From a virus: a stretch of DNA of 34,626 nt. The DNA lies in IMG/VR virus record IMGVR_UViG_3300030098_003923, positions 1 to 34,626 of that record; one strand, 5' to 3'. Below the pieces are notes generated by a model. The model made no database searches, was not told the origin of the DNA, and saw nothing but the letters and a program-made list of their open reading frames with translations. Shown piece after piece: positions 7,120 to 30,024 of the stretch. Each line of letters opens with the position of its first letter. Within the stretch, counting starts at the first letter, position 1. The position numbers and the translations under genes are program-made.

Positions 7120-9106
7120 TACGATACATCTGCCCAAGGATAAAAAATCCCTCGCCCGAGTTATCTCCCTCCATGTTGATAGGGAGTTATCTCGTTTGTC
7201 GTACCGAAGAAGTATGTGGCTACTTGCTTGGTACTACCTGAATGGGTATCGAAGGTTTGATGCGTTTGATCCCGGTCGTAACCACATTGTCCCCCACTAT
7301 CTGGATAAGGATGGCAACCTTGAGTTTCAGTCTCAGGACTTGATCTCAATGATTGACCGAATCACAGGTCGCCTGTCCTCCATGGACCTGAGGCCCAAGG
7401 CTCTCCGCCAAGGCAACTCACTGGCAGGACTTCGAGAACGAGCATCAGCCCAGCTTATTGCTGATGCTGTTTTTTCTGAGCACCAGATCGAGGAAGTCAA
7501 AGCTCAGTTTGCCAGCATCTTTGTAACCCTTGGATCATGTGGCATTACAGGTCATATTACTGAGCACCCCACTATTGGGTTGTCAGCAGACCTCGAAGTG
7601 GTTCACCCCAAGGAACTGTTCCCGTTCCCTAGCCTTAACGTTGACAATAGTAAGGTTCGAGGTCTTGTTCGTCAGCGTATGGTCCCGCTTAGTTTCCTCA
7701 AGAATATCTACGGTAACAAGATTGAGAAGAACAAGAAGGACATGGATGTGTGGGTCTGGGAGCAGGGCCACAACATGGAGGTTCCTGAAGAAGAGAACGA
7801 GATCAACCAAGCCTACCCCAAGAACATGTATGGGGCTTCGGGCCTGAACTACAAAGCTGGCAAGTACGAAACTGAAATGGATGTCGTCAAAATCCGCGAA
7901 GTGTGGATCGACGGACCCCGAGGTACTTGCTCACGATACATTGTTAGCTCTGGCGATTACGTTATTGAAGATCAGGACTTGTCCGAGCTTGAGGTGTACT
8001 GCCCCATCGGGTTTGCTCGGTTTATGGATACGGGCACGTTCCATGGCATTGGCATGTTTGACTTGATGTTCTCACTGGTCAGAGAACTTGAGCGCATGAT
8101 GAAGTCCCTATTCAACAACGTGCGAGACATCGACAAGTATGGCGTGGTTCTGCTGCCCCACGGAACAATCAACGATCGTGCCATGCTGCGTGATGTGGGC
8201 AAGGGCCTGCGCTACATGACTTACTCCAAGGACGCACTGATGGGTGAGGACTTCAAGCCCATCGTGATTTCCCCCCACAATGCTGGGGATGCGCCGGGTA
8301 AAGTCGCTGGGTTTGCCCGCGACATAATGAAGCAGATTTCTCCTCTACAGGATCTCATTGCTGAAAAGGGTCGAGTAGATAGTGCTGCTGGTCTTCAGTT
8401 CCTTGACGACCAGTTGAATCGGGCAATGACCAACCCAACTTCAGGACTTCAGCGGGCGTTTGGTCAGATGTACAAATCTACAGTGTCTGCTGCCACACGA
8501 CACATCGTAGTAAGTAATCCTTCCCTTCCTGTAAATAAACTTACCCTCGACCTTGCTGGTGCGATTATCGACCAAGAAACTAGCACGGTTAACTTCAAGC
8601 AGAACCCGATTCCCAACATGAGTCAGGTCTCGTTTGCAGTCAGGGAAATCAATCCCAAGTCTGAACTGGCTCGTAAGCAGGAAGCAATGCAACTCCTAGA
8701 CAAACGAATGACTGACCCAACAGGAGTCAAGTTGTTTGCTTTGAAGGAGGGTCTTGACTTTGCTATGTGGATGGACGAGGAAAAAGCAGCCTACGAAATG
8801 GTTGTTAGAAACATCCTCACCCTGTTTGGTTCGGGTGGTGATCCTCAACAGATCATTATTACACCGCACACCAGTAGGCCAGACATCCAACTTCGTGTTC
8901 TTTCTGCATTCATGACCGGACCCACAATGGGTGTAGCGTCACCTCAAGTGCAGGATTCGTTTAAGGTTTATCGGGAAGCGTTGATTTCGTTCATGGGGCA
9001 GACGCTTCCTGCCATGGTTCCTAACCCAGATGAAATGGCTAATCTGGGTATGCAGCCTCCAATGCAACCAGCCCCACAACAGCTTCAAGGAATGAATAAT
9101 GTCTGA
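7109..9106 (+). CDS. portal protein
   Basis: The portal is the dodecameric ring at the capsid vertex through which DNA enters and leaves. The product has 665 residues, the size expected of podoviral portals. Seen in order: a helical N-terminus with WYYLNGYRRFDAF, the MIDRITGRLSSMDLRP segment typical of the body, HPKELFPFPS in the beta-rich wing, and a long amphipathic helix region FDLMFSLVRELERMMKSLF at about 317-335 consistent with the stem/clip. The Gln/Pro/Met-rich tail fits a flexible C-terminus. TerL precedes it and scaffold follows with an 8-base overlap. Identification rests on size, order and general pattern. Confidence 0.88.
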   Translation: MAIDTIHLPKDKKSLARVISLHVDRELSRLSYRRSMWLLAWYYLNGYRRFDAFDPGRNHIVPHYLDKDGNLEFQSQDLISMIDRITGRLSSMDLRPKALRQGNSLAGLRERASAQLIADAVFSEHQIEEVKAQFASIFVTLGSCGITGHITEHPTIGLSADLEVVHPKELFPFPSLNVDNSKVRGLVRQRMVPLSFLKNIYGNKIEKNKKDMDVWVWEQGHNMEVPEEENEINQAYPKNMYGASGLNYKAGKYETEMDVVKIREVWIDGPRGTCSRYIVSSGDYVIEDQDLSELEVYCPIGFARFMDTGTFHGIGMFDLMFSLVRELERMMKSLFNNVRDIDKYGVVLLPHGTINDRAMLRDVGKGLRYMTYSKDALMGEDFKPIVISPHNAGDAPGKVAGFARDIMKQISPLQDLIAEKGRVDSAAGLQFLDDQLNRAMTNPTSGLQRAFGQMYKSTVSAATRHIVVSNPSLPVNKLTLDLAGAIIDQETSTVNFKQNPIPNMSQVSFAVREINPKSELARKQEAMQLLDKRMTDPTGVKLFALKEGLDFAMWMDEEKAAYEMVVRNILTLFGSGGDPQQIIITPHTSRPDIQLRVLSAFMTGPTMGVASPQVQDSFKVYREALISFMGQTLPAMVPNPDEMANLGMQPPMQPAPQQLQGMNNV

Positions 9107-10019
9107 AGAAACAACGCCTCAAGAAGAAATGACCCAATCCGAAGTCGAAGAAATCGGTATGGATACCGAGATTGAGTTTGAGGGTAAGACTTATACCCTT
9201 GGTGACTTGATGCAGGCTCAGTCCCAAATGGGTGAAATGCAGTCTCAGCTTAATCAGTTGAATGAATTCAAGCAGAGCACCGTTCAACTGATGTCTAACG
9301 ACTCCAACAATGACGCACGAATGAAAGCTGCCCGCGTAGTGCTTTCAGAGTCGGGGTACACCCCCCGAGAAATCGAAGAGTATATGTCTGAGTATGGAGA
9401 AGCCCTTAACGAAGCCCCCGATGTGGGGGGAGAAATTGACTACACCCAAGAAGAAACCTCAGCGGAGCCTGCAAACATGAATTACGAAGACGCTGAAGCT
9501 CGTGCAGAAGCTTCCCGAGCAAGTGAAGAACTCAGACAGTACCGTCTTCAAATGCTCCAGCGAGAGATGCAAAACGGAATCAATAATGCTCTTGACAGTA
9601 ATAAGCAGGTTGAGGTATTGTTGGGTCGCCTGAAGTCAGGTGACAATACAGAAAATTATGACAAAGCAAAAAGTAGCCTCCAGCAGCAGGTTCATGACCA
9701 AACGATGAAAGTACTCCAAGCCCGTAAGGCTCGGGAAGGTACCTTCAGCGAAGCTTGGGTTCAAGACGCTGCAATGGAAGCTACTAACGAAGTGCTTGGT
9801 ACGTACCGGACGGTAATCGGTGACATCGACTCTATTGGTCGTGCACCGGAAACAGTATCCGGGGAACCGACTCTTTCATCAAAGCCCCCAGTCCCCGAGC
9901 CCGAGTTTAAAGAGGGCATGACTAGAGGCGACGTTGATACGTCTGTAAAGAATTGGAACACAGACGTTCTTTCTAGGCTGGCAGAAGAGTCTTCTGCTGG
10001 CGACGAGTCAAAGGCTTAA
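9099..10019 (+). CDS. capsid scaffolding protein
   Basis: The scaffold guides capsid shell assembly and then leaves. This 306-residue product is strongly acidic, Glu/Gln-rich and mostly helical. There is a coiled-coil-like stretch at about 33-60 (DLMQAQSQMGEMQSQLNQLN) and another at about 128-160. The C-terminal end is short and helical. It lies between portal and major capsid genes, the standard slot. No Ser-His-Asp protease signature is seen, so it is a scaffold rather than a scaffold-protease fusion. AAGG precedes the ATG. Confidence 0.85.
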   Translation: MSEETTPQEEMTQSEVEEIGMDTEIEFEGKTYTLGDLMQAQSQMGEMQSQLNQLNEFKQSTVQLMSNDSNNDARMKAARVVLSESGYTPREIEEYMSEYGEALNEAPDVGGEIDYTQEETSAEPANMNYEDAEARAEASRASEELRQYRLQMLQREMQNGINNALDSNKQVEVLLGRLKSGDNTENYDKAKSSLQQQVHDQTMKVLQARKAREGTFSEAWVQDAAMEATNEVLGTYRTVIGDIDSIGRAPETVSGEPTLSSKPPVPEPEFKEGMTRGDVDTSVKNWNTDVLSRLAEESSAGDESKA

Positions 10020-13188: not shown

Positions 13189-13437
13189 ATGGCTACCAAG
13201 TTCAAGCTTGAAAAGTCAAAGGGTCTGCACGGCTGGTTTGCTCGTAACAAAGGCAAAGGCTGGGTAGATTGCAAGACCGGAAAGGCTTGTGGTCGCAAGT
13301 CAGCTAAGGGGGGTAGCAAGCGTGCGTATCCTGCTTGCCGCCCCACTATGGCAATGTGTACTTCGGCAGCTAAGAAGAAAACGGGTCCTGCCAAGATTTC
13401 TTGGAAGGGCAAGAAGAAAAGATACAAGGTTAAGTAA
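13189..13437 (+). CDS. small Lys/Cys-rich protein, GKGWVDCKTGKACGRKSAKGG family
   Basis: The 82-residue product contains GKGWVDCKTGKACGRKS, then KRAYPACRPTMAMC, and ends in Lys/Arg-rich KISWKGKKKRYKVK. The four Cys are placed as in a recurrent family of short basic proteins I recall from marine phages and environmental bacteria; the spacing suggests metal binding or disulfides. High-expression codons (AAG, CGT, GGT) point to many copies. It stands in the cluster straight after the capsid genes and its stop overlaps the next start. A DNA-binding or capsid-internal role is plausible but unproven. Confidence 0.75.
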   Translation: MATKFKLEKSKGLHGWFARNKGKGWVDCKTGKACGRKSAKGGSKRAYPACRPTMAMCTSAAKKKTGPAKISWKGKKKRYKVK

Positions 13438-13682
13438 TGGCCGCAAAGATTGACAAGAAAAAGATGGCCTGTAATAGGCCGCGTAACCAACGAACCAAGA
13501 CCAAGAAGTTTGTGGTCAAGGCTTGTCAAGGTGGTAGGGAAAAGATCATCCGATACGGCGATGCCAACATGACGATCAAGAAGAATCGTCCGGGTCGTCG
13601 TAAATCTTTCCGCGCTCGTCACAACTGCGCCACTGCCAAGGATAAGATGAGCGCACGTTATTGGTCTTGCAAGAAGTGGTAA
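13437..13682 (+). CDS. small Arg/Lys/Cys-rich protein, ARYWSCKKW family
   Basis: The 81-residue product has the recurring elements VVKACQGGREKIIRYGD, NMTIKKN, RKSFRARHNC and the C-terminal ARYWSCKKW. I recall this combination from a conserved short protein of marine phages, function unknown. It is strongly basic, with four Cys (12, 29, 64, 78) that may bind a metal ion. The ATG lies in a TAATG overlap with the previous gene. High-expression codons again suggest a structural or DNA-coating protein made in quantity. Confidence 0.75.
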   Translation: MAAKIDKKKMACNRPRNQRTKTKKFVVKACQGGREKIIRYGDANMTIKKNRPGRRKSFRARHNCATAKDKMSARYWSCKKW

Positions 13683-14741: not shown

Positions 14742-15668
14742 ATGCATTCAACTAACTCATTTATCTACACAGTCATCGAGCGTATCCGTGGTTACTTGGA
14801 TGACCCTGATCTGGATGCCAAGTACAGCGATGACTTTCTGCTGCGTCACATCGTGATGCCGTCGATGAGCAATGTGCTGTCTCGTATAAACAACAGCTTG
14901 AGTAACCCGGTGGTGTCTAGGCTGCGGTTGTCCTTGATTGCTGACCAACAGTACTACCAGCTTCCCCCCACTGTGGGTGAGATCTGGAATGTTTGCGTGT
15001 ATGACGCTGATACGGGCAAGATTACTGAGGACTTTGTTCCTCGGGGTCACTGGAACCCGCGTGGTGTTAACTGGTCAATCGAGGGTAACCAGCTTTCCGT
15101 AAAGCCTATTCCCCAGAAAGCCAAGGACATTGACATCTTCTATACCCACACTGGCGACCTGTTGCTTCACTACGGAACAACGGATGCCGGTTTTGAGTTG
15201 GACGAGTCAGATGAAGGAGAAAAGAAAGTTCTCTCTTTGGATGTCAGCCCTACCATTGGTGCAATTGATAAGCGACCAAACGCTTATGCAGGTTCGATGC
15301 TTCGAGTATTGTCTGGCAATGTGATTGAAGAACTGGTCATTGAGTCCAGTAGCTCAGACGCAAACAGTTCAGAAATCAAAGTGACTACTCGAACTCCTGC
15401 GGTCTACCACGATAGTGATAGCACGATTACTTACGAGATTGCCCCTGTTGGATTCCAACCCCTGTATGAGGCTATCTCTGCTTCGGGTGCTTTGAAGCTT
15501 GCGTCGTACAAGAAGATTACGGGTGTTCACTTCCAGATGATCCAGATGCAGTACAAGGATGCACTGAAGACAGCAGCCGATCATTACTCTAATATGCAGA
15601 TGCGTATGCCCAAGCACTGGGACAAGGATACGATGGATAACTCGGACAACCATCTCTTGCCTTATTGA
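14742..15668 (+). CDS. probable head-tail adaptor protein
   Basis: The 308-residue product begins with helices (VIERIRGYLDDPDLDAKYSD, LLRHIVMPSMSNVLSRINNS), continues with a beta domain containing QQYYQLPPTVGEIWNVCVYD, and ends with helices (YKKITGVHFQMIQMQYKDAL). This helix-beta-helix order with a 'yyqLP.~v~ei..v' element is typical of podoviral proteins joining the portal to the tail. Its position after the capsid cluster and before tail genes supports that role. The family call is by pattern only. The ribosome site is weak (CGGG). Confidence 0.6.
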   Translation: MHSTNSFIYTVIERIRGYLDDPDLDAKYSDDFLLRHIVMPSMSNVLSRINNSLSNPVVSRLRLSLIADQQYYQLPPTVGEIWNVCVYDADTGKITEDFVPRGHWNPRGVNWSIEGNQLSVKPIPQKAKDIDIFYTHTGDLLLHYGTTDAGFELDESDEGEKKVLSLDVSPTIGAIDKRPNAYAGSMLRVLSGNVIEELVIESSSSDANSSEIKVTTRTPAVYHDSDSTITYEIAPVGFQPLYEAISASGALKLASYKKITGVHFQMIQMQYKDALKTAADHYSNMQMRMPKHWDKDTMDNSDNHLLPY

Positions 15669-15675
15669 GGATTAA

Positions 15676-16707
15676 ATGTCTCCTGTATATTCACCTTCCA
15701 ATGCAGCCTACATGTCGGAGTACGGTCCCATTCATGGGGCGTATGGTCCGTCTGCTGAAAGCAAATTCCAAATGGGGTTTGGTCAGTCCCAAGCCCTACC
15801 CGGTCTTGACCCCTCCGTACAAAGAGGCGGTAACAATGCTGGCGGTGCGTGGGCTCCGAACAACGGCGCATCACTTCAGTCAGGACTAGACGGTCTGGAC
15901 TTTGGTGAGATCCCCCCATGGTCTGGTGGTGGGGGTGGCAACATCCAGCAGATCACCAACAACTTTGCTGGCGGGGCTGACGGCGTTGGTGTTTTTGAAA
16001 TAAATAGCCAATCGCTTGACACAGGTGATGTTTCTCTAATTAAAGAAACAACCGGAAGCACGGACATTGGAGAGTCTGGAACAACTACAACCTTAAATGC
16101 GTTGAAGTGTTCCGACGGCACAGTGTCATTTAGTTCTTCTGGTGGGAAGATTGACATCACCGCTTCTGGTTCGGGTGCTTCATACAGCAGCACAGCTACT
16201 ATCAGTGTTAGCGGTAATGACCTTGATGGTCGGTACTCCTACAGTAGTCCTGATTTTTTTAGGGACGCGGACGGTGGTAACGACGACGTGTTTGTTGCGG
16301 GTACCCACCGAACAACCAAGTTCCTTTTTGGAATTGCAGCTATTGAGCCAAACACAACAAACCACGTCCCGGGTGACCCTGGTTACCCTTTTACTTACAA
16401 GTTTACCCGTGTCGCAGGGGATATTGATGCAAGCGGTGACGAGTGTTTTAATTTAGTTGAGGTAGACAACTCAGGCGTAAGTCCTCGATATGTTGGGGGT
16501 ATTTTAATGTCCGGTAGTGGGTATCCCAGTACTTACTCCCCCTCTCCAGCAACCACAACAAAAAATACTGGGGCTTCAAGCGTTCACCGACAACAGTGTT
16601 TGGTGTTTATGTGGAAGGATGTAGCAGGACTTATAGGCAATGCGGGAACACATTACTTCCAGTTGCAAATCCCCCACGATGGATCATGTCCTTCTAGTAG
16701 CGGTTAA
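15676..16707 (+). CDS. Gly/Ser-rich virion protein
   Basis: The 343-residue product starts with a Tyr/Gly/Pro-rich region (1-80), then a Gly linker (GGGGG at 84-88), then beta-rich repeats with Thr and Ser (KCSDGTVSFSSSGGKIDITA). The C-terminal domain is also beta-rich (HYFQLQIPHDGSC). Composition fits a surface or tail-attached fibre-like protein. No enzymatic motif is seen. It lies directly before the cysteine-rich giant gene and may act with it. GAGG lies a few bases before the ATG. Confidence 0.7.
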   Translation: MSPVYSPSNAAYMSEYGPIHGAYGPSAESKFQMGFGQSQALPGLDPSVQRGGNNAGGAWAPNNGASLQSGLDGLDFGEIPPWSGGGGGNIQQITNNFAGGADGVGVFEINSQSLDTGDVSLIKETTGSTDIGESGTTTTLNALKCSDGTVSFSSSGGKIDITASGSGASYSSTATISVSGNDLDGRYSYSSPDFFRDADGGNDDVFVAGTHRTTKFLFGIAAIEPNTTNHVPGDPGYPFTYKFTRVAGDIDASGDECFNLVEVDNSGVSPRYVGGILMSGSGYPSTYSPSPATTTKNTGASSVHRQQCLVFMWKDVAGLIGNAGTHYFQLQIPHDGSCPSSSG

Positions 16708-16721
16708 TCAAGGTTGAGAAA

Positions 16722-19700
16722 ATGACGATACGTGCATGTGCATCTTTGCCTTATGGGTGCAATGAAAAAGGACAAGGCGATTCAGTTGGGGCTCCCAAAG
16801 TCTTTAAGTTTGTCCCTTGTGGCAAGTGCAGTGCAATCATGCCCTGCGCTAAAGAGTTTATTTGCGACACTTTTAAAACCCACCAAATAATAAGTGCGGG
16901 GGGTAATAACTATGACATGTGGAAAGAAATTGATGGCGGGGGCTGTAAAAAGTTAGATTTTGACGGTAACGAACTTCAGCTTTCAACCGAGTTTGATGCT
17001 GACGGAAACCCAGACCCTACGTTTCCACAACATGTATACCGAGTCAAGTTTGATAGCGATTACATTAGAAGTAATCCTGATTGCAAAAACCCTTTTAACG
17101 AAGAAAACTGTCCTGACCTTGAGCCTTGCGATGGAAATGAAAGATCACACCCCGGTTGCCCTGCAAGCGCAGAACAAACCGGCACTGCGGGCTTTGCTGC
17201 TCGTTACACCATTAGGATGACAAGAAGTCACGCTGTCTTTGGGTATGAACTAGATGAGGACGGAAACCCAACCACTACCCCCATTGTCTGTGAATCACAA
17301 ACAGTAAATGAAGACGGAAGTGATGCAGGTTGTGTTTACGAACAACTGGGTAGTTTTGCTTGCTCCGAAGAAGGAGAGCCTTGTGACCCAACACAAAGCG
17401 CACCCCAAGGATGCGAGTGTGTTTGCACACCTGAGTTTATTGATCAGGAGATTTGCGGTTACTTTGTAGAGCCTGCTTGCGGGGACAACACAGTTGAAAC
17501 CCGGGAGATTTGCCCTGAAGATCCCGCTCATGTGATATCAAACTTTACTCGTGGGCCGTGGCCTTTTAAAGGTGTGGGTTGGGCACCTAGTTTTGCTGGC
17601 TATAAATACCACATCAAAAAAACGAGGACGGTTCCAAGCGCGGACCCCACCACTCAAGCATTTACTTGTGAAAGAACTGAAACAGACTGTGGTGAGTCTG
17701 AGTTGGTTCCTGATTGCGTCAATGAAATCAGTAGTTGTGTCCAGCCCATGGACAGCTTTGGTATCAACGTCAATCAAGACTTGGGTACAGATCCTGAAAC
17801 AGGTAAGAAGTTTGTCTGGCCTAAGCACCTTCAGTTCAATCTAAGCTCCCTTGTTTACTCAGCGGAAACTGAAACAGAAGACTGCAACATTCCCGAGATG
17901 GATTGTTCCAAGGCTTACTACTACGAAAACAACTGGAGTTCCGGTGGAAGTGCCTGTTTTAACCAAGTAGTCCAAGGAACTGTTGGGGGGAGAAAACAGC
18001 ATTACGTCAATGGGGACACACCCTACGGTTCTGAATACATACACCCCGACGGGTTTCCAACTCGAACATCTTCAGACCCCGATATAGATGGAACTCCTTT
18101 TCGTAGTCGAGGTGTGCGGTGTAAGGTTGACCTTGAAGCCGAAAACTGCAACGACAACAACAGGTGGGGAAACAACGGGAAGCTTGGTAATGCCAGTCAT
18201 CCCCCCACTCAGCGGTTTGGTCAGTTTTCCATGTGCTCTCCCTTTGCGTTATGGGAAGAAATACAACGAGACGACCTCGGCACTTACGATGACAAAGGAG
18301 AAGCTATAGGTGAAAAGCGTGTTTATCGAGAGGCTTGTTGGTTTCAAGGCAAAGGCAAAGCTCGAATAATTAACTCGACTCGAATTGAAACGGAGCCTGT
18401 TTCAGTTCAGTTAACCGCACCTGACTTCCAAAGAACCAACTCTCGATTTGTCGAATACTTTGTTGACGTTGAAGGTTTGGTTCCTCCCGTGTGCGATGAC
18501 GGCAATGTTCCTTGTTCAGGGGCGGGTGCTAACTTAATTAAACCTCTTCCTTGTTTACCTTACGCACAAAATGACAAGGTTGATTCGGATGGGGTTCAAG
18601 GCCGCCCACAAGCTATGCGGCTTGAAGGTGGGTGGGTTTGTAAAAACCAGAAGTACGATGTGTACTACGTTTGCAGCAGAGCAAATAGGATGACGGACTA
18701 CTTCTTGTGGTTGTGTTGTCAGAGCTTTAGTTGTTTCTGTTGTCGTGAAAGTTGTGAACCTAACGCTTGCCCCCCACAGTGTAATTGTGGGGGTGAGGGT
18801 ACTGGTTGTCCTTGTGACTCATGTCGAGAGTGTAGAAGAACTGCACTTTATGCGTGTGGTGCTATTGGCTCAGGTGGCAATGGTTATGAAGACCCCGGAG
18901 ATGGAGATGGAACTATTGGTGGCGTTAGTGGTTGTCCGGGTGGAACCACGCATAATCAATGTGGTTCTTTTAGTGATGGGTGCGGCAACTCAGGTTACAA
19001 GTGCGTAAACATTTCTTCTGCGGTCAACTTGGAACACGGAGCTACTGCACCTTGCCCCGGGTCAGAAACTTCAGTGCCTTCGTATCAAGGTTTCAAGAAA
19101 GACTTGTACATTAGAGTGCTTCTTCGTTGTGATCCTGAAGCAACCCACTATGACCCCCTTACCGGAGAATCAAGCAGGGGGGTTATCAGATCTGAGTTGA
19201 CTCTGTGGTCACAGAAACACCCAAGATACGATGACGATGGTGACAGTGACGGCATCCCTGTTAGCGATGGGGGAGCAACCAAGGGTTGGGAACCAGTTAC
19301 TGGAGGACCTACAGCAACTCCCTGCACCCTTGAAGATGGAGGAAACGACTTTTGTGATGCATGGGATGGGTTTATTTACGGAGATGAACCCGGAGCTATA
19401 CCCTGCGAAAGTTGTTACAACATTGTTCTTGCAGACCGGCTTTACAATGAAGACCCTTCTTTAGGCTACCCGCCGCTTGCTTCTTTTTGTGGCTGCCAAG
19501 GTGATGATGACATTGGAACAGCATGGCCTTGTAATGGTTGTGAAGAAGGCAATACTAAATGTGATGACTTTAACCCGGGATGCCTTCCAAACATATTTAA
19601 CCATGAGTGGAGTGAGGGGCTCATGGACATCAAGGCAGTTTCAGGACCTACCATAAACGAAGAAGGAATTGGTGGAAGTGTTCCCGCAGGGGGCCCAATT

Positions 19701-20939
19701 AACCGGTCTAACTACTGGCGATGGGGTTGTGATTTTGTTCCCACTGGTTATGGATTAACGCCCGGTCGTTTTAGCAATTGGACTGGAGGCTTAGGATCAT
19801 ATCCTATGCCCGACCCCACAAAAAGTTCTGCGGCTATGTTTTGTAGGAGGGACTGCAATCACATTGAAGAGCGGTGCATTAGCCCGTCTTGTAATTGTGA
19901 AGGAGATTGTTTCTGTAGTCCTGATCAGGGAGGAAACACTAATCCAAATTGCCAAGATGATCCTGATCCTGAACTTGACTGCCCCGACAACGAATTTACT
20001 TACCAGCAAAAGATTAACACTGTTAATCCGGGCGACAGGTTGTCTAAGGTTCTAGGTGTTATGGATATTAGAACCACTTCCGAGTGGCAAATTAGAACTT
20101 TTGGAACTGGTTCTACCAACGGCAGTTCCGCTTTTTGCAACAGACACCGTTACGGGTTCAACAAGCACCTCCACCCCATGTTTAACTTGTTTGGTTGCAA
20201 CTACACGGGTCTTGGTAAAAGTTTCTGTGACGGTTCTGACGAAGGTGATGGTGGTGGTATTCCGCCCTGTAGTGAAGTCACAGGAGAAAGAGGCCCAGCA
20301 CCTATGTTCCCTGCTTACCGGGAACTTATAGATAGCTACCCTAACATTGAAAAGATGGGTATTGGTGGAAGCCAAAGTGGCCCTCAGCACTTTACATCAG
20401 GGATGAGAAACACAACGATGCAGTTTGCCAAGCCCTGTACTGGGTGGACCAAGCTGGTCAATGAGTTGAATTATCCTGTGGTTCCCGCAGGCCAGTACAC
20501 CTATAAGCAGGGGTACGGACCCGGCGACTTGGAAGATAAAGACTACGGTTCTGACCACGAAAACTACACCCAGCCCGGTGAAAGAAGTCTTAGTGCTAGT
20601 CATGCGGGGTCGGTTGATCTTCCCGTGGGTTACGCAACTGACCGGGTGGATTCAGAAGGTACGGCTCTCCCGCACTGTACCTATACCGACATGATCGTAG
20701 CTATCAGTGGGGGGGCCTACGAAGACATCCAGCCAGATGCTCGACAAAAAGCAGACCTTGGACCCGCCATCAGTGAGCAGTTCAAGTTGAGCTACATCTT
20801 CACCAAAGAGTGTGACGCAAACTGGTACTCTATTGACTCAGGGCACATGAAGCACCAAGCCAACGGTTGTGCCAAGAAGCCTACACTTACAGGGGGTCAG
20901 GTCTCGTTTGACTTCTACGACCCCACAGATCAAGGGTAA
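16722..20939 (+). CDS. giant cysteine-rich virion protein of unknown function
   Basis: This 1405-residue product has roughly 85 cysteines, about 6 percent. They are clustered: C33, C36 and C42 near the start; C221-C264; the densest patch at 665-712 with 14 Cys in 48 residues (FSCFCCRESCEPNACPPQCN); 923-954 (CGCQGDDD...CNGCEEGNTKC); and 1041-1087 (SPSCNCEGDCFCSPDQGG). CxC and CxxC pairs are frequent. Asp/Gly loops such as FDADGNPDPT, LDEDGNPTTT and DDDGDSDG could bind calcium. No signal peptide or membrane segment is seen. It sits among tail genes, so a receptor-binding or surface role is likely. I know no phage family that matches it. Confidence 0.8.
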   Translation: MTIRACASLPYGCNEKGQGDSVGAPKVFKFVPCGKCSAIMPCAKEFICDTFKTHQIISAGGNNYDMWKEIDGGGCKKLDFDGNELQLSTEFDADGNPDPTFPQHVYRVKFDSDYIRSNPDCKNPFNEENCPDLEPCDGNERSHPGCPASAEQTGTAGFAARYTIRMTRSHAVFGYELDEDGNPTTTPIVCESQTVNEDGSDAGCVYEQLGSFACSEEGEPCDPTQSAPQGCECVCTPEFIDQEICGYFVEPACGDNTVETREICPEDPAHVISNFTRGPWPFKGVGWAPSFAGYKYHIKKTRTVPSADPTTQAFTCERTETDCGESELVPDCVNEISSCVQPMDSFGINVNQDLGTDPETGKKFVWPKHLQFNLSSLVYSAETETEDCNIPEMDCSKAYYYENNWSSGGSACFNQVVQGTVGGRKQHYVNGDTPYGSEYIHPDGFPTRTSSDPDIDGTPFRSRGVRCKVDLEAENCNDNNRWGNNGKLGNASHPPTQRFGQFSMCSPFALWEEIQRDDLGTYDDKGEAIGEKRVYREACWFQGKGKARIINSTRIETEPVSVQLTAPDFQRTNSRFVEYFVDVEGLVPPVCDDGNVPCSGAGANLIKPLPCLPYAQNDKVDSDGVQGRPQAMRLEGGWVCKNQKYDVYYVCSRANRMTDYFLWLCCQSFSCFCCRESCEPNACPPQCNCGGEGTGCPCDSCRECRRTALYACGAIGSGGNGYEDPGDGDGTIGGVSGCPGGTTHNQCGSFSDGCGNSGYKCVNISSAVNLEHGATAPCPGSETSVPSYQGFKKDLYIRVLLRCDPEATHYDPLTGESSRGVIRSELTLWSQKHPRYDDDGDSDGIPVSDGGATKGWEPVTGGPTATPCTLEDGGNDFCDAWDGFIYGDEPGAIPCESCYNIVLADRLYNEDPSLGYPPLASFCGCQGDDDIGTAWPCNGCEEGNTKCDDFNPGCLPNIFNHEWSEGLMDIKAVSGPTINEEGIGGSVPAGGPINRSNYWRWGCDFVPTGYGLTPGRFSNWTGGLGSYPMPDPTKSSAAMFCRRDCNHIEERCISPSCNCEGDCFCSPDQGGNTNPNCQDDPDPELDCPDNEFTYQQKINTVNPGDRLSKVLGVMDIRTTSEWQIRTFGTGSTNGSSAFCNRHRYGFNKHLHPMFNLFGCNYTGLGKSFCDGSDEGDGGGIPPCSEVTGERGPAPMFPAYRELIDSYPNIEKMGIGGSQSGPQHFTSGMRNTTMQFAKPCTGWTKLVNELNYPVVPAGQYTYKQGYGPGDLEDKDYGSDHENYTQPGERSLSASHAGSVDLPVGYATDRVDSEGTALPHCTYTDMIVAISGGAYEDIQPDARQKADLGPAISEQFKLSYIFTKECDANWYSIDSGHMKHQANGCAKKPTLTGGQVSFDFYDPTDQG

Positions 20940-20942
20940 ATA

Positions 20943-21266
20943 ATGTCTGATGCTAAAGTATACGATATGCCGGTAAGAGTGTTTGTGGATCGCCGACCCT
21001 ACACATTCAAAGTCCGGGTAGATGAGAAGAAGATGATTGCTAGGGTTGTGACGGCTATGGAGCCTGTAGACAAAGAGCTTACGGGTGTTGGGGATGTAGT
21101 ATCTCGGGTAGCCAAGGCAGCGGGGATAGAAAAGAAGGCCGGGTGCGGCTGCTCTAAAAGACAAAAAATGCTAAACGATGTACTGCCCGTAAAGCCTGAT
21201 GGTATAGTGTCAAAAACAACTGACAAACTGACCAAGATTCTTGGTGCATTTGGTAAGAAGAAATGA
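20943..21266 (+). CDS. small protein with GCGCSKRQ motif
   Basis: The 107-residue product has an N-terminal beta region (YDMPVRVFVDRRPYTFKVRV), a helix, and then KKAGCGCSKRQKMLNDVLPV at 65-84. The GCGC(A/S)KR...LN motif recurs, as I recall, in small phage and bacterial proteins and may bind a metal through the two Cys. The C-terminus is Lys-rich (LTKILGAFGKKK). Its TGA overlaps the ATG of the nozzle gene (ATGA), so the two are coupled; it may be a small partner of the tail. Confidence 0.7.
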   Translation: MSDAKVYDMPVRVFVDRRPYTFKVRVDEKKMIARVVTAMEPVDKELTGVGDVVSRVAKAAGIEKKAGCGCSKRQKMLNDVLPVKPDGIVSKTTDKLTKILGAFGKKK

Positions 21267-24200
21267 ACGAACTGACAACCCAGTGGACCTACAATCTCGA
21301 CGAAATGAGTGAGGACAAGAGCCGCCCTCGGGTGGGGACTCCTCCTCAAAAAGCGTTTGAGATCATTGGTATCGACGGCAACATGAATGGTGGCCTTCGT
21401 CCTATTTCTGGGTTTAAACAGGTAGCAGAACTAGACTACTATTACGACTCAAGTATATCTGACCATTCTGATGTTGCTTCTGCTTTTCAATTTAACCACA
21501 CCTCAGAAGTTATTGATTTCTTCCCCGTCAACTTCAGACTCAATCACAAGTTGAGAGCCGATGGAAGCTTTGAAACAGAGGATAAAGAAGGCTACGCTTA
21601 CGGTTATGTGTATCGGGTAAAGCAGGACGGCAAGACTACCTCTGTATTCATTGAGTACTACGACTCGTTGACTGGAGACTGGGTTAGCTTTGGTGGCAAA
21701 GGCCATATATCAGATCTTGATGCAGGCAACCAGAAAGGTTACGCCGCTGACCCTGCCGACAACCAAGTTCTTGCTACCGCCACAATCACCACAGACCATA
21801 ATGGCGATAGCACTACTGATGACCATCTCCCCGACGAAAAAAGTTTTATCCGGCTTATAGATGCTTCGGGCACAACAAAGACGTACGTCTTGGTTGATAG
21901 CTCTCAGGCAGGTACTCAACCAGATACAGGCTTCATACTAGAGTCAAGCACTGATACAGGAGCGGGAACTGCGGATGGTTTGGCTGGCGGTATTGCAGTC
22001 AACATTGATAGGACTTCAGCTACTCCCTACCTGTATTTGGTTGAATTGAAAAAAGCTATTGAGCACGCTAATGGTCATGCCGGTTCTATTGCTGTTTCAA
22101 TTCCTGCCGCAGCGGCATCCAATCCCCAAGCTCTTACCCTTACTTCTGGGGTGTACCAAGGTAGTGCAGCTAAAGGCAATAAAACAAACACAGGCGACAC
22201 CAATGATGAAGTATCAATTACTAACTTTACTGGTGGGACAGACAACGACACTACGCTGTTGACCGACAGGTTTACTGATGAAGATGCTCAGATGTCTGTG
22301 TCTACTTGGGGTCGTTATGTGTATGTCTTTTGCCAAGGGCAGAAGCCTCTCCGCTTCCACGTAAACGAGTGGGGCAAGCCGGAAACTCTTGGTAGGACAT
22401 CTACTGGACCATTCCCCGGTGGGGGGAAACAGCCCAAGCTACACGAAAAGTTCCTCGACGTAGATGTGACAGATAATGGCATTGATATCACAAACATTGG
22501 AATTAGAGACTCCACGAACTCTACAAGTAGCGGTTCTCTTGACGGGCCTTCTACTGAAGGAACAGGGGGTTGTTTTCCTTCTCAAATTGGCAAGGCTCTT
22601 TCGACAAGCTCTACTGTTCAAGTGCCTTGTATGGCTCGTATCATGGGGGTCAAGTCTGCAACTGCGGGGGCTCTTGACGGGATTGATTATGGGGGTGAAT
22701 CTAATGCTGACGGCGAGGCGTACCAAAACGTAGCGGCTGTTGATAACAACCCCGCCCCGGCATCAACTGTAAATGATGATGCCCACCTCTTTGAGACAGG
22801 TGATTACGCATTTGCGTACTACTTGGCAAACAGCAAGACTGGATCAAAGACCCAGTTGTCTCCTGTGTGTGAAGCCAAAACTGAAGACTTTGAAGCTGAC
22901 ACAAGCAAGTACATTTGTTTGGATATCAGGTACGACTCAGACCAGTACGACCAAGCTTTTGTGTACAGGTCAGTCAAGACTCAGGACGCAGGTGGTTCCT
23001 ACATTGCAGGCATCCTGCACCTAGACAACATCATTAACCTTGAAGACTGGCACGTAAACAATGGTGCTAGTGGGGACTCCAAAGACTCAACTGGGGTTCG
23101 TACTGCGGTTTACTGGTATCAGTTGAATGACACTTCTCTTGTTTATCAGGATGTCTACCTCGACAAAACCATCCACGACGAGTTCATGCCCAGTGGGGGG
23201 TCCTCCATCTTCTATGAAGGTGCGATGGTTGTCAGCAAGATCAAGGACATTACAGCCAGCCAGATTGGTGTAGGCACTAGTAAGGGGTTTACTAATCGGG
23301 TGGGTGACCTCGACAGTGGTTTGGGTGAGACGAAGTGGTCATCCATTTACGAGATCTCTCCCGAGTTGTTCCCCCCACTGAATCGGTATGTACCTCCAGT
23401 ACCGACTAACGAGATCTCCCGGTTCATTCAGGTGGGTCCTGCGTTGATGGGGTTTGCCCGTGATCGCCTGTACTACATGATTAAGGATGGCGCGTTCCTC
23501 CGTATGCAGGAAGCCCATCGCGGGTATGGGATTGTCAATGCGTATGCAGGTGACTCGATTGGACCCCTTGCTTACTACGTGACTAGTCGTGGGGTCAAGG
23601 CTGTCCATGCCAACTCTCGTATTGATGATGTGTCTGCGCTAGACAAGTTCATCGTTGAAGACTGGCGAGACAACCATGCTGACATTCAAGTAGCGTATGA
23701 CCCTACCCAGCTTGCCCTCTATATCCACAACCCCGTACTTGAGCAGACTGCCGTCCTGTGGTTTAACACGGGTAAGGTTACTGAAATCCATGACACTTGC
23801 TTTGACATGTGTCGTCGTGGGGCTTGGTCTTCTGACCTGACAAACATAACTTCGGATCTTGAGGAGCGAGTCCTCTGGGTCATGAATAACCCGGATACTA
23901 CTCACACCTCTGCAATCTCCAGTTTGTTCAAGCCGAAGGTTTATATCCTCGACAACGAACGAAAGACTGTCGATGATGGGGGCAAGGGCATAATCCGAAT
24001 GCTCCAGCACAGTGCTACTACACCTTACGGAACCGTGGGGTCTGTTAACACTGGCGAAAACTCTTTTACAATTAGTGGGTCTGGGGTTGTAGTTTCCGAC
24101 ATGGTGGGTTCTTACTGCTATGTAACGCAAACTGGCGTAAGCACCGAAGGGTTTGACGCTGCTGGTGTTGGACAAAAACTTAAAGTCACAGGTGTAGATA

Positions 24201-24721
24201 CAGGAAGTAAAAAGATCTACGTAGCTTCTACGGACATAAGCAAGGTTGGAGCGGGGTACAACGTTTCCGTTTCTCCTGTGTTTATGAGGTTTGTAGGGGC
24301 TCCGATTACTAGTTCGGTGCCCACACCAGAACGACCTCATGGCGGAAACAACCTGTTCCGGGTCAAGCAAATCTCCTCGCTTGGTGCTGTGTTCTCCGGG
24401 GTAGGTTACAACCACCTCACCACCGATCTCATATATTGGAGGGGTGTGGTGTATGAGGGTGAGGAAACTACCCCCAAGAGTCACGCAGTTTCCCTTGACA
24501 GAACAGGTGCCTTGGTCCGATCTATTAACGATGGGGAGTCGGACAACTGGGCTGCCTTTGAAAACCCAACCACCACCACGGTCAAGGGTCGCCACGGAGT
24601 CAAAGGCTTTTCTCTCTCTCCGGGGTTGGAAATTTTCTGTGTTGATGTAGACTATAGACTATTGCAGGTGCAAGCTAAGGGTACAATTACAGCCACCAGC
24701 AACACTAACCTCACTACCTAG
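21263..24721 (+). CDS. tail nozzle / tail tubular B-like protein with inserted module
   Basis: The 1152-residue product has the features of the podoviral nozzle at the end of the short tail. It shows an N-terminal 'R.GTPPQKAFEIIGIDGNMNGG...ISGF' element and long beta-propeller-like stretches, including ALMGFARDRLYYMI, GDSIGPLAYYVTSRGVKAVH, and AVLWFNTGKVTEIHDTCFD. Residues about 165-327 are an extra Thr/Gly/Asn-rich module (EHANGHAGSIAVS, GNKTNTGD) similar to that inserted in the protein at 11698-12429. The gene overlaps its small neighbour by four bases. The call rests on pattern, size and position; similarity searches would settle it. Confidence 0.7.
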   Translation: MNELTTQWTYNLDEMSEDKSRPRVGTPPQKAFEIIGIDGNMNGGLRPISGFKQVAELDYYYDSSISDHSDVASAFQFNHTSEVIDFFPVNFRLNHKLRADGSFETEDKEGYAYGYVYRVKQDGKTTSVFIEYYDSLTGDWVSFGGKGHISDLDAGNQKGYAADPADNQVLATATITTDHNGDSTTDDHLPDEKSFIRLIDASGTTKTYVLVDSSQAGTQPDTGFILESSTDTGAGTADGLAGGIAVNIDRTSATPYLYLVELKKAIEHANGHAGSIAVSIPAAAASNPQALTLTSGVYQGSAAKGNKTNTGDTNDEVSITNFTGGTDNDTTLLTDRFTDEDAQMSVSTWGRYVYVFCQGQKPLRFHVNEWGKPETLGRTSTGPFPGGGKQPKLHEKFLDVDVTDNGIDITNIGIRDSTNSTSSGSLDGPSTEGTGGCFPSQIGKALSTSSTVQVPCMARIMGVKSATAGALDGIDYGGESNADGEAYQNVAAVDNNPAPASTVNDDAHLFETGDYAFAYYLANSKTGSKTQLSPVCEAKTEDFEADTSKYICLDIRYDSDQYDQAFVYRSVKTQDAGGSYIAGILHLDNIINLEDWHVNNGASGDSKDSTGVRTAVYWYQLNDTSLVYQDVYLDKTIHDEFMPSGGSSIFYEGAMVVSKIKDITASQIGVGTSKGFTNRVGDLDSGLGETKWSSIYEISPELFPPLNRYVPPVPTNEISRFIQVGPALMGFARDRLYYMIKDGAFLRMQEAHRGYGIVNAYAGDSIGPLAYYVTSRGVKAVHANSRIDDVSALDKFIVEDWRDNHADIQVAYDPTQLALYIHNPVLEQTAVLWFNTGKVTEIHDTCFDMCRRGAWSSDLTNITSDLEERVLWVMNNPDTTHTSAISSLFKPKVYILDNERKTVDDGGKGIIRMLQHSATTPYGTVGSVNTGENSFTISGSGVVVSDMVGSYCYVTQTGVSTEGFDAAGVGQKLKVTGVDTGSKKIYVASTDISKVGAGYNVSVSPVFMRFVGAPITSSVPTPERPHGGNNLFRVKQISSLGAVFSGVGYNHLTTDLIYWRGVVYEGEETTPKSHAVSLDRTGALVRSINDGESDNWAAFENPTTTTVKGRHGVKGFSLSPGLEIFCVDVDYRLLQVQAKGTITATSNTNLTT

Positions 24722-24732
24722 CAGGGTGTATT

Positions 24733-25899
24733 ATGTCGCAATTCCAGCAGCCTTCCTATCTTGCAAACGCCAGCCCAGAGCTTCAAGCTTTGTATGGCAA
24801 CCTTTTTGGTAGCGGGGGAATACCCGGGCAAAATACACAGCAAGGACAGCAACAGCAACAGCAAGGTCCTTTCTCCCCTACACCTGTGGGTTATCAGTTC
24901 AACCAAAATCAACAGATGGGTCCCTTTGGTCCGGGCAGTGTTCCTACTCCGGGTTTTGGAACTACTCCTACAAGTCTGTATGGAGAGGAACCCGCGAACA
25001 CCTTGCTTGGTCAGCAGATTCCTTCATTCTTTATGTCGGACCAGTTGGCTGGTGCAGCACTTGGTGACTACCAGAATCTAATTGACGCAGAGCAGTTCAA
25101 TCGTGAACGTGCCCAAGGCCAGATAGATCAGTTTGGTAATCTTCTCCAACAGGTGCCCGGTGTAATTCAGGGTACCGCTGCACAGCAGGCTCAGGGTCTT
25201 CGTGATCAGGCAAGTGGGTTTGCTGAATCTCTTGAAGAAGAAGCTAGGTCTGCAAGAGATGCATACAGGGAAACCCTTACGGCCCGCGAAGCTGAAATAG
25301 ATGAAAGCATCGAACGTCTCCGAGACGAACAATCCAACCAAGCTTCAAGCATGGCTCTTGGTGTAGATAGATCTACCCAGAGTATGATGAACCAGATCAA
25401 CTCAGGCATTAACCCTGATGGCACCATGATGACCCCTGCACAGAAGCAGGCTGCCACAGCACAAGCAACATTCCAAAACAAACAAATGAGGCAAAGCGCA
25501 CTTGAAGGTGTGCTTGGTCAAATGGCAACCGAAATGTTTGGTGCGGAAATTCAAGGAACCCAAATGAAGATGGGTCTTGATCAGGCAGGGTTTGGTGCAG
25601 ACCAGTCAGTGGCACAAGCAATGGAAATAGGACAGCAGTATATGGCAAGCGCATATCAAAATGCTGCTGCTATGGAAAGTGCTGCGGCTACTCAGGCTAC
25701 CCAGTTCCTCCTTACTGGACAGCAGAACATGTACGAAATGTACAAGACTAACCCGTATGCCCCCGTCGCTTTGTTTGACACCCTTGCTGCAATCTACTCA
25801 ATTAAGATGAACGAACCCCTGAGTGACTTTGCTAAGGTTGGCCCGATGACTGGCGACTTCTTTACTCAAGGTCTTAGCGGACAACTCCCCACTCTTTGA
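24733..25899 (+). CDS. candidate internal virion protein, Gln-rich
   Basis: The 388-residue product begins with a Gln/Pro/Gly-rich disordered region (1-90, including GQQQQQQGPF), then long helices rich in Ala, Gln and Glu (about 105-345, for example ESLEEEARSARDAYRETLTA). The order after the nozzle and the helical character match the internal proteins that podoviruses eject into the host. A weakly hydrophobic part near the end (APVALFDTLAAIYSIKM, about 342-358) could touch a membrane. No enzyme motif is visible. The role is inferred from position and composition. Confidence 0.65.
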   Translation: MSQFQQPSYLANASPELQALYGNLFGSGGIPGQNTQQGQQQQQQGPFSPTPVGYQFNQNQQMGPFGPGSVPTPGFGTTPTSLYGEEPANTLLGQQIPSFFMSDQLAGAALGDYQNLIDAEQFNRERAQGQIDQFGNLLQQVPGVIQGTAAQQAQGLRDQASGFAESLEEEARSARDAYRETLTAREAEIDESIERLRDEQSNQASSMALGVDRSTQSMMNQINSGINPDGTMMTPAQKQAATAQATFQNKQMRQSALEGVLGQMATEMFGAEIQGTQMKMGLDQAGFGADQSVAQAMEIGQQYMASAYQNAAAMESAAATQATQFLLTGQQNMYEMYKTNPYAPVALFDTLAAIYSIKMNEPLSDFAKVGPMTGDFFTQGLSGQLPTL

Positions 25900-25910
25900 T
25901 AGGTTAACCC

Positions 25911-27566
25911 ATGTCAAACATGCCAAACGCACAACAACTTTCAGCGGTTAGCCAAGGGGCTCAGGCTTCTATTGCTGACGCTAACAGATCTGCCAACACC
26001 AGAGAACAACTGCGTGGTCAACAGGCTATGCAAACTCAAGCTATTCAAGCCCGTGCTGCGGAAGCAGACAAACAACGATTGTTTGACCAAAAGCAATTTG
26101 ATGCTACCTACGGTTTGCAGCAAGAAAAGTTTGCCGAGCAGAAACGTAAACAGCAAATTGAAGAAAATAGAGCAAGAAGTATTGCAGAACTACAGGCTAA
26201 AAAGCTTGAGATTGAAGAGCGAATTCGGAATACTGACCTAGCAAATCAAGAAAAGTTAGTCCGGCAAAAAAACGCTATTCAACAGCAGCTTTCAGCCGCA
26301 CGAAAAGAAGCTGGTGTTTTTAGCATTCTTGCAAACAAAAACAAAGAAGAAATAGCACAGTTTATTGAGCGCATCCCAGCCATGCGTGAACAAATTGAAG
26401 CGCAAAGACAAAGCCTTATTGGCATAGGAGATGATGCTGCTGCTTACGCAATGAACCGATTGGGTGAAGTATTTAATGATCGGTTTAAAGGGATGGAAGA
26501 CATTACTCAATCTACCATTCTTGGATTTGATGTAAGTAACGCAGCAATCTTCGATGAGTTCAATCGTCAGATGAGCAACGAAGAACTGGCTACTCGCGCA
26601 GCAGAGATGGGTTTGGGCGGTATTGCAATAGACGCAACAAAGCCAGTTATGGAACAGCTTACAAGTAATGCAGCTCTTGACTCTATAGCTCGGTCTCTGG
26701 GTATGGGTCCTCTTGCTAAGGCAGTTGGTGAATCTATTGCCGCAGGAAGCCAAGGGCAAATTGACCAAGAAGCCGCTACCAGAATGATGGAACAAATCAT
26801 GGTGGCTGTTGTTAGTGGGGATGCAGGGGACCTTACTACAGAAATTGAACAGGCCTCTCAAGACTACGGTATTAATGGAAACATTGTGAGTAGTGCGGTT
26901 CGCAGCCTGTCACAAATGCTAGGTGAAAAAGCATCTACTTTGATTTTGACTGCACAGAATGAATCACCCACTCAAGCTGAAGCTGAGTTCTTTGGTATGC
27001 CCCACTTGCTTGGGGCTGGTGAGTTTCAAACTCCCACTGGCTTTGGTTTGTTGGGGGTCATGGGCACTGCTATGGGAAGGCTTTCAGAAAGACTTGATCT
27101 GGCTTCCCGTGCGGTAGAAGATAGAAACTTCCAACTTCAAGATAGCCTTGATACCCTCGATCAACTTCAGGGTTTTGACTACAACGAAGCCGCTGCTGGG
27201 GGTTCTGGGTTTGGTTCTGGTGGGTTGAGTGCCGCTCAGATTAGAGACATATTGTCTGAAGATCTTGGTGGTGGTGAGTTGCCTTTGCTGGATCAGTTTA
27301 TTCGTGATCTAGGCGACATCGAGGATGTGCAGAGTCAGGTCTTTAGTGAACTTGGTGCTGGACCTGCTAGTGCTAAGGGGTACACCGAACTGGGTGACCT
27401 TCTTAACGAAGCAGTTCTACGTACGGGAGGGGCTGTTACAGATCAAGAACAAGCCCTACAAAACCTCATGGAAGAAATTCAGTTTAGACAAGCTCAGGGT
27501 CGAAGTCCTTACACTCCGCAAGAGCTTGCTGAACTTGCTGAACTTGAAAGACGAACTGGTGGTTGA
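25911..27566 (+). CDS. candidate internal virion protein, coiled-coil
   Basis: The 551-residue product is helical throughout the first 185 residues. A strong coiled-coil pattern is at about 40-150 (QIEENRARSIAELQAKKLEI and following). The middle (about 200-330) is Ala/Gly/Met-rich and globular, then comes a Gly-rich hinge (GGSGFGSGGLS at about 435-445) and a Leu/Glu-rich end. It belongs to the block of ejection-type proteins. No lytic transglycosylase or lysozyme motif is seen. The family was not recognised. Confidence 0.65.
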   Translation: MSNMPNAQQLSAVSQGAQASIADANRSANTREQLRGQQAMQTQAIQARAAEADKQRLFDQKQFDATYGLQQEKFAEQKRKQQIEENRARSIAELQAKKLEIEERIRNTDLANQEKLVRQKNAIQQQLSAARKEAGVFSILANKNKEEIAQFIERIPAMREQIEAQRQSLIGIGDDAAAYAMNRLGEVFNDRFKGMEDITQSTILGFDVSNAAIFDEFNRQMSNEELATRAAEMGLGGIAIDATKPVMEQLTSNAALDSIARSLGMGPLAKAVGESIAAGSQGQIDQEAATRMMEQIMVAVVSGDAGDLTTEIEQASQDYGINGNIVSSAVRSLSQMLGEKASTLILTAQNESPTQAEAEFFGMPHLLGAGEFQTPTGFGLLGVMGTAMGRLSERLDLASRAVEDRNFQLQDSLDTLDQLQGFDYNEAAAGGSGFGSGGLSAAQIRDILSEDLGGGELPLLDQFIRDLGDIEDVQSQVFSELGAGPASAKGYTELGDLLNEAVLRTGGAVTDQEQALQNLMEEIQFRQAQGRSPYTPQELAELAELERRTGG

Positions 27567-27919
27567 TATTGGCTAAGTGGAAACAGATATCCAAGTTGAT
27601 GGCTGAAATGCATAATACCCATGGCAGGTCCGCTGTCACAATGGGGGGAGAGAATGCATTTGCTAAAGCAGTGGATTCTGAGTTATCCTTTAAGGAAATA
27701 TCGGAAGCCCACCTGCTTGCTTCTTGGAAGGACGTAGAGCTTACACCCAAGATGATCCGCCGCTGGATGTGGGACATCCGACAAGACAAGGTACTCAAGG
27801 AAGAAAACGTATTTGCTTGGACAGTCCAGAACGAAGAAAACTCAGTGGGGGGATTTGGAACCCTCGTTGAACCAGACGAACAATTCCTACCCCTTGAGGT
27901 AACAGATGAGCCAGTTTAA
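27563..27919 (+). CDS. small hypothetical protein, uncertain start
   Basis: The frame overlaps the previous stop and the next start. No ATG is available until residue 13; TTG 27563 or TTG 27569 (giving MAKWKQISK) are possible starts, with GGTGG nearby, and ATG 27599 gives MAEMHNTHGR but lacks a ribosome site. The product is up to 118 residues: charged helices (SFKEISEAHLLASWKDVELT, MIRRWMWDIRQDK) and an acidic, Val/Pro-rich end. Its position between two ejection-type genes suggests a small virion partner or a chaperone for them. The family was not recognised. Confidence 0.6.
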   Translation: MILAKWKQISKLMAEMHNTHGRSAVTMGGENAFAKAVDSELSFKEISEAHLLASWKDVELTPKMIRRWMWDIRQDKVLKEENVFAWTVQNEENSVGGFGTLVEPDEQFLPLEVTDEPV

Positions 27920-28994
27920 CCCTAGTCAGTACGAATTCTTGTTTGATAGCCCGGGCAGAACTAAGCCTCGTTTGGCAAAGCCTAGTGACGCTGAGTTTAA
28001 AAAGGCTATTCAGTCTTTGATTAGAAAGCATGGTTCGATCAAAGACATTCCCGAAGCTGAAGCAAAGAAGCTAGTTAACAGGTTTCAGAACCACCCTCTT
28101 AAGAGAGGCACTGCAACTAAGACTGGCGCAGCAGCTAAAAGCTTTTTGAAAACTGCCGCTGACAAACTCAAAATCCCTGTTGCTGTTGCTGCACCTTCAG
28201 GTCGTAGAGATGTTAAAGGGCAGATGAAACTTAGAGATGAGTATCTTAAGGATAGGCCAGCAACCGCTACTCCAAGGTCAGACCTTGCTAGAAGGCAATC
28301 GACTGAACTGAAAGCAAAAGAAAGTCTTCGTAAAAGAAAAGCTGACCAATCTAACCGACAAGAGATTCAAAGAGAACGTGCTCAAAGTGACCTAGCAAAG
28401 CGTGAACGCGCTGCGGCTGATCGAATAAACGAAAGAAAAGCTAGAGCTAAAGAACGAGGAAGCACTACAAACACAAAGGCACTTGCCCGAAGAGAAGCTA
28501 CAGATCTAGCAAAGAGTGAAACTCCTGACAAGCCAGCATCTAAACCAGCCGCTAGTGCAGGCGGGACCGCAGCTAAAACAGCAGCTAAAACAGCAGGTAA
28601 GGCTGGGTTGCTCCGTAATCTAGTAGGCGGGGCTAGAGCTATGGCTGGTGGTTTGCCGGGTATGGGTTTGCTTGCACTCAGTCTTCTTCCGATGCTTGCT
28701 GGCAGCGGAAAGCTTGCAAGTGACGAGCGTAAAAAGGAAGTCGAACGTCTCATGCTTCAGGAAAAAATGAAGCGTGAAATGAATCGATACAGGGGTAACC
28801 CAATTCAAAGATATGAAGATCGTGTCTATGGAGACCGGCTTGATAGTGCAATGATTGGCGCAACTAGACGAGAAAGCCCCGTGTCCCCCGAACTAGTCTC
28901 TCTGCTGGGGGGAGAACAAGGAAGGCTCGAAGCACTCCAGAATCAAATGGGTAGAAACCAACTCTCTCTTGATCAAGTGCTTAGGCAGCTTTAA
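27906..28994 (+). CDS. candidate membrane-active ejection protein
   Basis: The 362-residue product has three parts: a basic N-terminal region (1-120); a long, highly charged helix with many Arg/Lys/Glu (about 125-205, LRKRKADQSNRQEIQRERAQ); and an Ala/Gly-rich hydrophobic stretch at about 235-267 (GGLPGMGLLALSLLPMLAGS) able to enter a membrane. The C-terminus is amphipathic and ends SLDQVLRQL. A basic, helical protein with one hydrophobic segment in this block fits the proteins that form a DNA channel across the host envelope during entry. This is inference; no family is recognised. Confidence 0.65.
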   Translation: MSQFNPSQYEFLFDSPGRTKPRLAKPSDAEFKKAIQSLIRKHGSIKDIPEAEAKKLVNRFQNHPLKRGTATKTGAAAKSFLKTAADKLKIPVAVAAPSGRRDVKGQMKLRDEYLKDRPATATPRSDLARRQSTELKAKESLRKRKADQSNRQEIQRERAQSDLAKRERAAADRINERKARAKERGSTTNTKALARREATDLAKSETPDKPASKPAASAGGTAAKTAAKTAGKAGLLRNLVGGARAMAGGLPGMGLLALSLLPMLAGSGKLASDERKKEVERLMLQEKMKREMNRYRGNPIQRYEDRVYGDRLDSAMIGATRRESPVSPELVSLLGGEQGRLEALQNQMGRNQLSLDQVLRQL

Positions 28995-29002
28995 GGATAA
29001 AC

Positions 29003-29581: not shown

Positions 29582-29592
29582 GGACTAAACAC

Positions 29593-30012: not shown

Positions 30013-30024
30013 TGAAGGGGTAGG

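Follow-up and report, generated by a model that had tools for sequence, protein, structure and literature searches.

The 34,626-base IMG/VR virus sequence analysed here (hereafter the window) encodes a protein of 1,405 residues with 85 cysteines (16722..20939, + strand), which is not an isolated oddity: cysteine-rich, rapidly changing proteins occupy the same position of the tail locus in nearly all of its relatives. Viruses that assemble in a reducing cytoplasm seldom encode proteins with so much cysteine. The protein probably belongs to the host-touching apparatus, as a part that changes fast and is stiffened by disulfides, and its best explanation, held with moderate confidence, is a virion tail-appendage (host-contact) protein that would be made reduced and later hardened by disulfides.

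The + strand of the window begins with a large terminase gene (PHROG 38, E 5e-35), followed by genes for portal, scaffold, capsid protein, small proteins and an SU10-type adaptor (14742..15668), and then by a 343-residue protein (15676..16707), the cysteine-rich protein, a 107-residue protein (20943..21266) and a 1,152-residue tail-nozzle-like protein (21263..24721), all on the same strand; a primase/helicase is encoded on the opposite strand. Portal, scaffold, capsid and nozzle are designations assigned from order, size and conservation. The adaptor, a head-to-tail connector conserved in relatives, matches Pfam SU10_adaptor PF24175 at E 3e-5 and 25 bits, just under the cut-off of 27; the nozzle-like protein (alignment A1) is conserved in 24 of the 29 relatives searched and has no match in the PDB; and the 107-residue protein, with GVGD and CGCSKRQ motifs, has a weak match to PHROG 32048 and a relative in locus L007. 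The cysteine-rich gene thus lies among phage tail genes, as the first-pass annotation had placed it, in a slot bordered upstream by the adaptor and downstream by the nozzle-like gene. Other head-tail open reading frames on the + strand of the window contain 0-1.9% cysteine, many of them none, the exceptions being a pair of small basic proteins (13189-13682), in which cysteine reaches 4.9%.

The open reading frame comprises 1,405 codons without an internal stop, and the exact cysteine count of its translation (85, or 6.05%) agrees with the earlier estimate. The densest cluster, 14 cysteines in residues 665-712 (18714..18857, + strand), is likewise present, and none of 300 shuffles reached 14 in any 48-residue stretch. 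The many CxC and CxxC pairs that had also been remarked upon are at chance level relative to shuffles (8 CxC versus 5.1 expected; 6 CxxC versus 5.1) and follow from the high cysteine composition. DxDG loops, previously described as calcium-type, are in genuine excess (8 versus 1.0 expected, with a maximum of 6 in 2,000 shuffles) and possibly mark calcium loops in the window protein; this excess is a trait of the window protein, hardly of its relatives. The spacing C-x6-C occurs 15 times versus 5.1 expected by whole-protein shuffling (p=0.0005) and 6.6 by local shuffling (p=0.0004), as the top pick among several spacings tested; pooled relatives show no enrichment, and C-x6-C was rejected as a family trait. 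Because 85 is an odd number, at least one cysteine must be unpaired within the chain.

The first-pass annotation knew of no described family, and this holds: the window protein is unmatched in Pfam, PHROGs, NCBIfam and the PDB, it has no GenBank phage match, and literature searches turned up no account of the protein family. Searches of 50,697 phage records by tblastn gave no match to the portal, the capsid protein or the cysteine-rich protein, the same search of phages with the slot proteins of relatives L131 and L138 found nothing, and nothing was found when related loci were sought with the window protein itself or A8 as query. Its closest relative is the slot protein of L007 (604 residues, 43 cysteines), which is homologous to it in blocks: residues 242-425 of the window protein align with 25% identity at E 1e-4 with composition correction off, and overall there are 197 identical positions versus a shuffle maximum of 182. 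Cysteine-to-cysteine matches in this pairwise alignment are not above those of shuffles, so cysteine conservation is better judged in other subfamilies. Comparison by hhalign of the window family with slot families other than that of L007 gave no significant match; profile comparison therefore ties the window protein to L007 only, and the word family denotes here a syntenic position and a shared style and does not imply common descent of the slot proteins, which is not proven.

With the capsid protein as query, 102 IMG/VR relatives were confirmed and 80 kept, and alignments of the adaptor and the nozzle-like protein added more. Among loci with both borders visible, on which occupancy was judged, the adaptor-to-nozzle slot almost always contains a cysteine-rich gene: all but about five records do, those without a qualifying open reading frame being L074/L095 (one record), L120, L127, L152 and L177. 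The slot open reading frames listed for L144, L150 and perhaps L112 and L117 are possibly in the wrong frame, so what is claimed is the pattern, without a precise percentage. Slot proteins range from 98 to 1,405 residues, the longest being that of the window, and are mostly unalignable from group to group. They contain from 12 to 85 cysteines with no common spacing, and their cysteine content, 6% in the window, rises to about 15% in relatives.

Within slot subfamilies, cysteine is the most conserved residue (0.87 versus 0.42 overall, 0.83 versus 0.48 and 0.73 versus 0.33), and conservation so far above the average indicates selection on the cysteines rather than an accident of composition. A CCC motif lies within the first 30 residues of 34 of the 52 distinct slot proteins, versus 0.7 expected; deeper in the chain its frequency is close to chance (13 versus 10.0 expected). 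In several pairs the body is swapped behind the N-terminus: between L030 and L131 the N-terminus is retained (score 138) and the body replaced (score 45), and the slot proteins of L021 and L075 are 94% identical over 31 N-terminal residues with no similarity beyond. The gene preceding a CCC-type cysteine-rich gene, which in the window is that of the 343-residue protein at 15676..16707, encodes a recurrent N-terminal motif, GF-x-Q-x4-PG (KFQMGFGQSQALPG in the window), and its product is a proposed attachment protein; a profile of this anchor recovers non-seed relatives at E values reaching about 1e-10. The window cysteine-rich protein contains neither this anchor motif nor the N-terminal CCC. 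A hidden CCC, frameshifted or upstream, was considered and rejected: the window gene has no upstream in-frame start and no TGY-TGY-TGY near its start.

In a second type of slot protein (L014, L027, L038, L052 and L086), collagen repeats detected by Pfam at or near the cut-off are followed immediately by a cysteine cluster such as CxCC and then by a cysteine-rich body, and the neighbouring protein and the cysteine-rich protein have a common N-terminal region (hhalign 83% probability, E 8.7e-6). The window protein has no Pfam Collagen match for Gly-X-Y repeats. Slot proteins of a third type, encoded directly behind the adaptor gene (L009, L012, L013, L016, L025, L154 and L162), seem to begin with an anchor resembling that of the neighbouring gene; the N-terminus of the L013 protein matches the anchor profile at E 1.8e-4 in a small set. 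Parity of the cysteine count was also considered: in a first set, CCC-type proteins were mostly odd and collagen and anchor types even, suggesting paired disulfides plus three extra cysteines, and the idea was dropped when the next set, a freshwater group, gave about 8 odd and 6 even.

A receptor-binding or surface role, as put forward in the first-pass annotation, fits the fixed tail-gene position, the hypervariability, the modular N-termini, the collagen repeats and the cysteine conservation in relatives; from such features we infer receptor binding and virion membership of slot proteins, as we do their disulfide state and trimerisation. The evidence for a virion location is thus indirect, which leaves some room for a non-structural accessory that is set free at lysis or enters the host and is simply co-transcribed with the tail genes, and the glycosyltransferase-like genes in this region of distant relatives demonstrate that it does hold non-structural genes. 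Such an accessory is nevertheless unlikely, as near-universal presence in relatives suits an assembled part rather than a dispensable one, and both the collagen fusions and the N-terminal region common to the collagen-type protein and its neighbour suit an assembled part better.

The arrangement of the cysteines bears on whether they would form disulfides or hold metal. Comparison with shuffles reveals no enrichment of paired CxxC zinc knuckles (2 versus 0.6 in the window protein; 19 versus 21.8 in relatives), which makes zinc less likely, and histidine is scarce in slot proteins (median 0.8%); to judge from these sequence features, the balance leans towards disulfides over metal. A virion protein with zinc or iron-sulfur centres that its cysteines acquire in the cytoplasm, and with calcium bound by DxDG, would need no oxidation and would accord with synthesis in a reducing cytoplasm, with the eightfold DxDG excess of the window protein and with the conservation of cysteines in slot subfamilies, but we consider it quite improbable given that neither CxxC pairs nor double CxxC knuckles exceed chance, that slot proteins contain little histidine and that the number of cysteines varies from 12 to 85 across relatives without a common spacing. 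No thioredoxin-family gene was found among 24 records, so oxidation would need a host or outside source.

The mechanism of a disulfide-hardened appendage is plausible. The cysteine-rich protein most likely makes up the distal portion of a podovirus-like tail, where the host is contacted, and may attach near the adaptor and nozzle either directly or via its anchor-motif neighbour. Its N-terminus is without a hydrophobic signal sequence, which points to cytoplasmic synthesis, where the protein would be made reduced, and the position among tail genes suggests that it would leave the cell as a component of the particle. After assembly or lysis the cysteines would oxidise, and the resulting disulfides would harden a long, loop-rich protein. 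In CCC-type relatives, the short constant N-terminus might serve for docking or cross-linking of the chain, or for a covalent bond to the anchor protein, with the body being exchanged. Cystine knots link the three chains of collagens, and in collagen-type relatives CxCC at the end of a triple helix could tie three chains, a function that N-terminal CCC could also have in its own type. As the window protein lacks CCC, its own attachment is the least certain step. A disulfide-hardened tail appendage has against it the absence of CCC, collagen and anchor motif from the window protein, the lack of profile links beyond L007, the five records without a qualifying gene, the odd cysteine count and the negative thioredoxin-family search in 24 records; the few or no cysteines of most neighbouring structural proteins count in its favour. 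A more far-reaching version, to which we assign rather low credence, is a lineage-wide host-contact appendage of rapidly exchanged, disulfide-knotted modules, carried either behind a constant CCC cross-link at the N-terminus or on a collagen stalk that a cysteine knot closes; it would be a covalently locked, redox-dependent system for receptor binding, possibly opened by reduction at the host surface.

The known kinds behind the slot protein are branched receptor-binding systems and disulfide-locked virions, and the slot protein is a variant of them. In anchored and branched receptor-binding proteins the N-terminus is constant and the body exchangeable, and in branched systems a short conserved peptide at the N-terminus can provide the attachment of a second protein (PMC6872550). 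Slot proteins of relatives similarly keep the N-terminus and vary the body. Unlike in anchor-branched systems, no T4gp10-like domain, depolymerase or beta-helix was found here (neither 16722-20939 nor 15676-16707 has any match in Pfam, PHROGs or NCBIfam, whether to a T4gp10-like branching domain or to a known anchor domain, and the recurrent anchor motif of the neighbour is a different one), the attachment peptide is CCC in most relatives, and the body is cysteine-rich; the window protein itself is without the peptide and has only remote relatives.

In the Agrobacterium phages Milano and 7-7-1 the virion is held by disulfides: cysteines of cytoplasmically made proteins become disulfide-bonded once the particle is complete, tail fibres and spikes are disulfide-linked, the capsid and decoration proteins of 7-7-1 bear a disulfide network, and contraction of the Milano tail in vitro required a reducing agent (PMC10811340, PMC12796354). 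These phages distribute about 2% cysteine over many structural proteins, whereas here 6% is found in one protein and most other structural open reading frames of the window, at 0-1.9%, do not have the raised cysteine of the Milano type. No sequence relation to Milano or 7-7-1 was found, the genes here are podovirus-like, and the disulfides are predicted from cysteine conservation. The collagen-type slot proteins named above match collagen-like phage tail fibres (PHROGs 5073, 6320, 366 and 819; PF01391), to which they add, unlike those fibres, a cysteine cluster and a cysteine-rich body; the window protein is without the repeats. Collagen-like fibrils are known on virions, and these, together with the network carried by the capsid and decoration proteins of 7-7-1, would fit a head or collar decoration (fibre or whisker), with a stabilising or coating function on the particle, in place of a tail part for receptor binding, but this is very unlikely because the gene is located in the adaptor-to-nozzle interval, at a distance from the capsid gene, and because host-recognition proteins typically exchange the body and keep the N-terminus. 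For collagen-type relatives only, the minicollagens of cnidarian nematocysts, short collagens with cysteine-rich domains that join via disulfides (PMC4863159), offer an analogy of working principle; they are animal proteins unrelated in sequence.

That an uncultured lineage of aquatic phages retains a slot with many unrelated-looking cysteine-rich proteins suggests selection for tail parts that are oxidised and hardened, and the slot proteins constitute a set of natural module swaps for study. A disulfide-hardened tail appendage, if true, would add podovirus-like tails to the short list of phage virions known to be locked by disulfides. An adaptor gene, an anchor motif in the next gene, an N-terminal CCC and a cysteine-rich body may together serve as a signature for host-contact proteins that are missed by homology.

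Structure prediction was attempted for the window protein and a relative. AlphaFold gave an unusable model of window residues 1-660 (pLDDT 28.6). The model of the L138 slot protein (8006-9553, 516 residues) has a beta-rich core (pTM 0.62, mean pLDDT 53.5) and no Foldseek match at E<=0.001 in the PDB and viral models. Outer-membrane beta-barrels (OmpT, OmpA, Pla and OmpG) make up nearly all of the top VIA-align rows for this model, at Z about 6, a range that the tool calls uninformative, although the rows are unusually uniform.

Among GTDB genomes there is one relative of the portal, on a Myxococcales MAG contig of 22.8 kb (L178, PCCS01000007.1) that also carries the terminase, capsid and adaptor genes of the lineage. 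This contig may be a hint of the host or a product of bin contamination, and on account of the latter possibility no host is assigned.

Several further features of the locus were observed. In distant relatives, genes resembling those of sugar modification (DUF6734 with DUF6171, glycosyltransferase family 2, hexapeptide-repeat transferase and MptE-like) sit between the cysteine-rich and nozzle-like genes (L080:16798-17805; L095:7895-8593, - strand; L085:4793-5281, - strand; L098:5297-6127), hinting that some virion protein may be glycosylated; none were seen in the window. The nozzle-like gene has grown to encode 2,300-3,700 residues in some relatives (L098:6132-17309; L099:5490-12578), where its two ends match the N- and C-terminal parts of the window nozzle-like protein. 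Past the nozzle-like gene of the window, at 24733-33960, most large proteins, including one of 1,311 residues, have zero cysteines, in sharp contrast with the cysteine-rich protein of the same module. An 81-residue basic protein with 4 cysteines (13437-13682; PHROG 7595) is up to 75% identical to proteins of Pelagibacter and Roseobacter phages and is the closest link found between the window and cultured phages.
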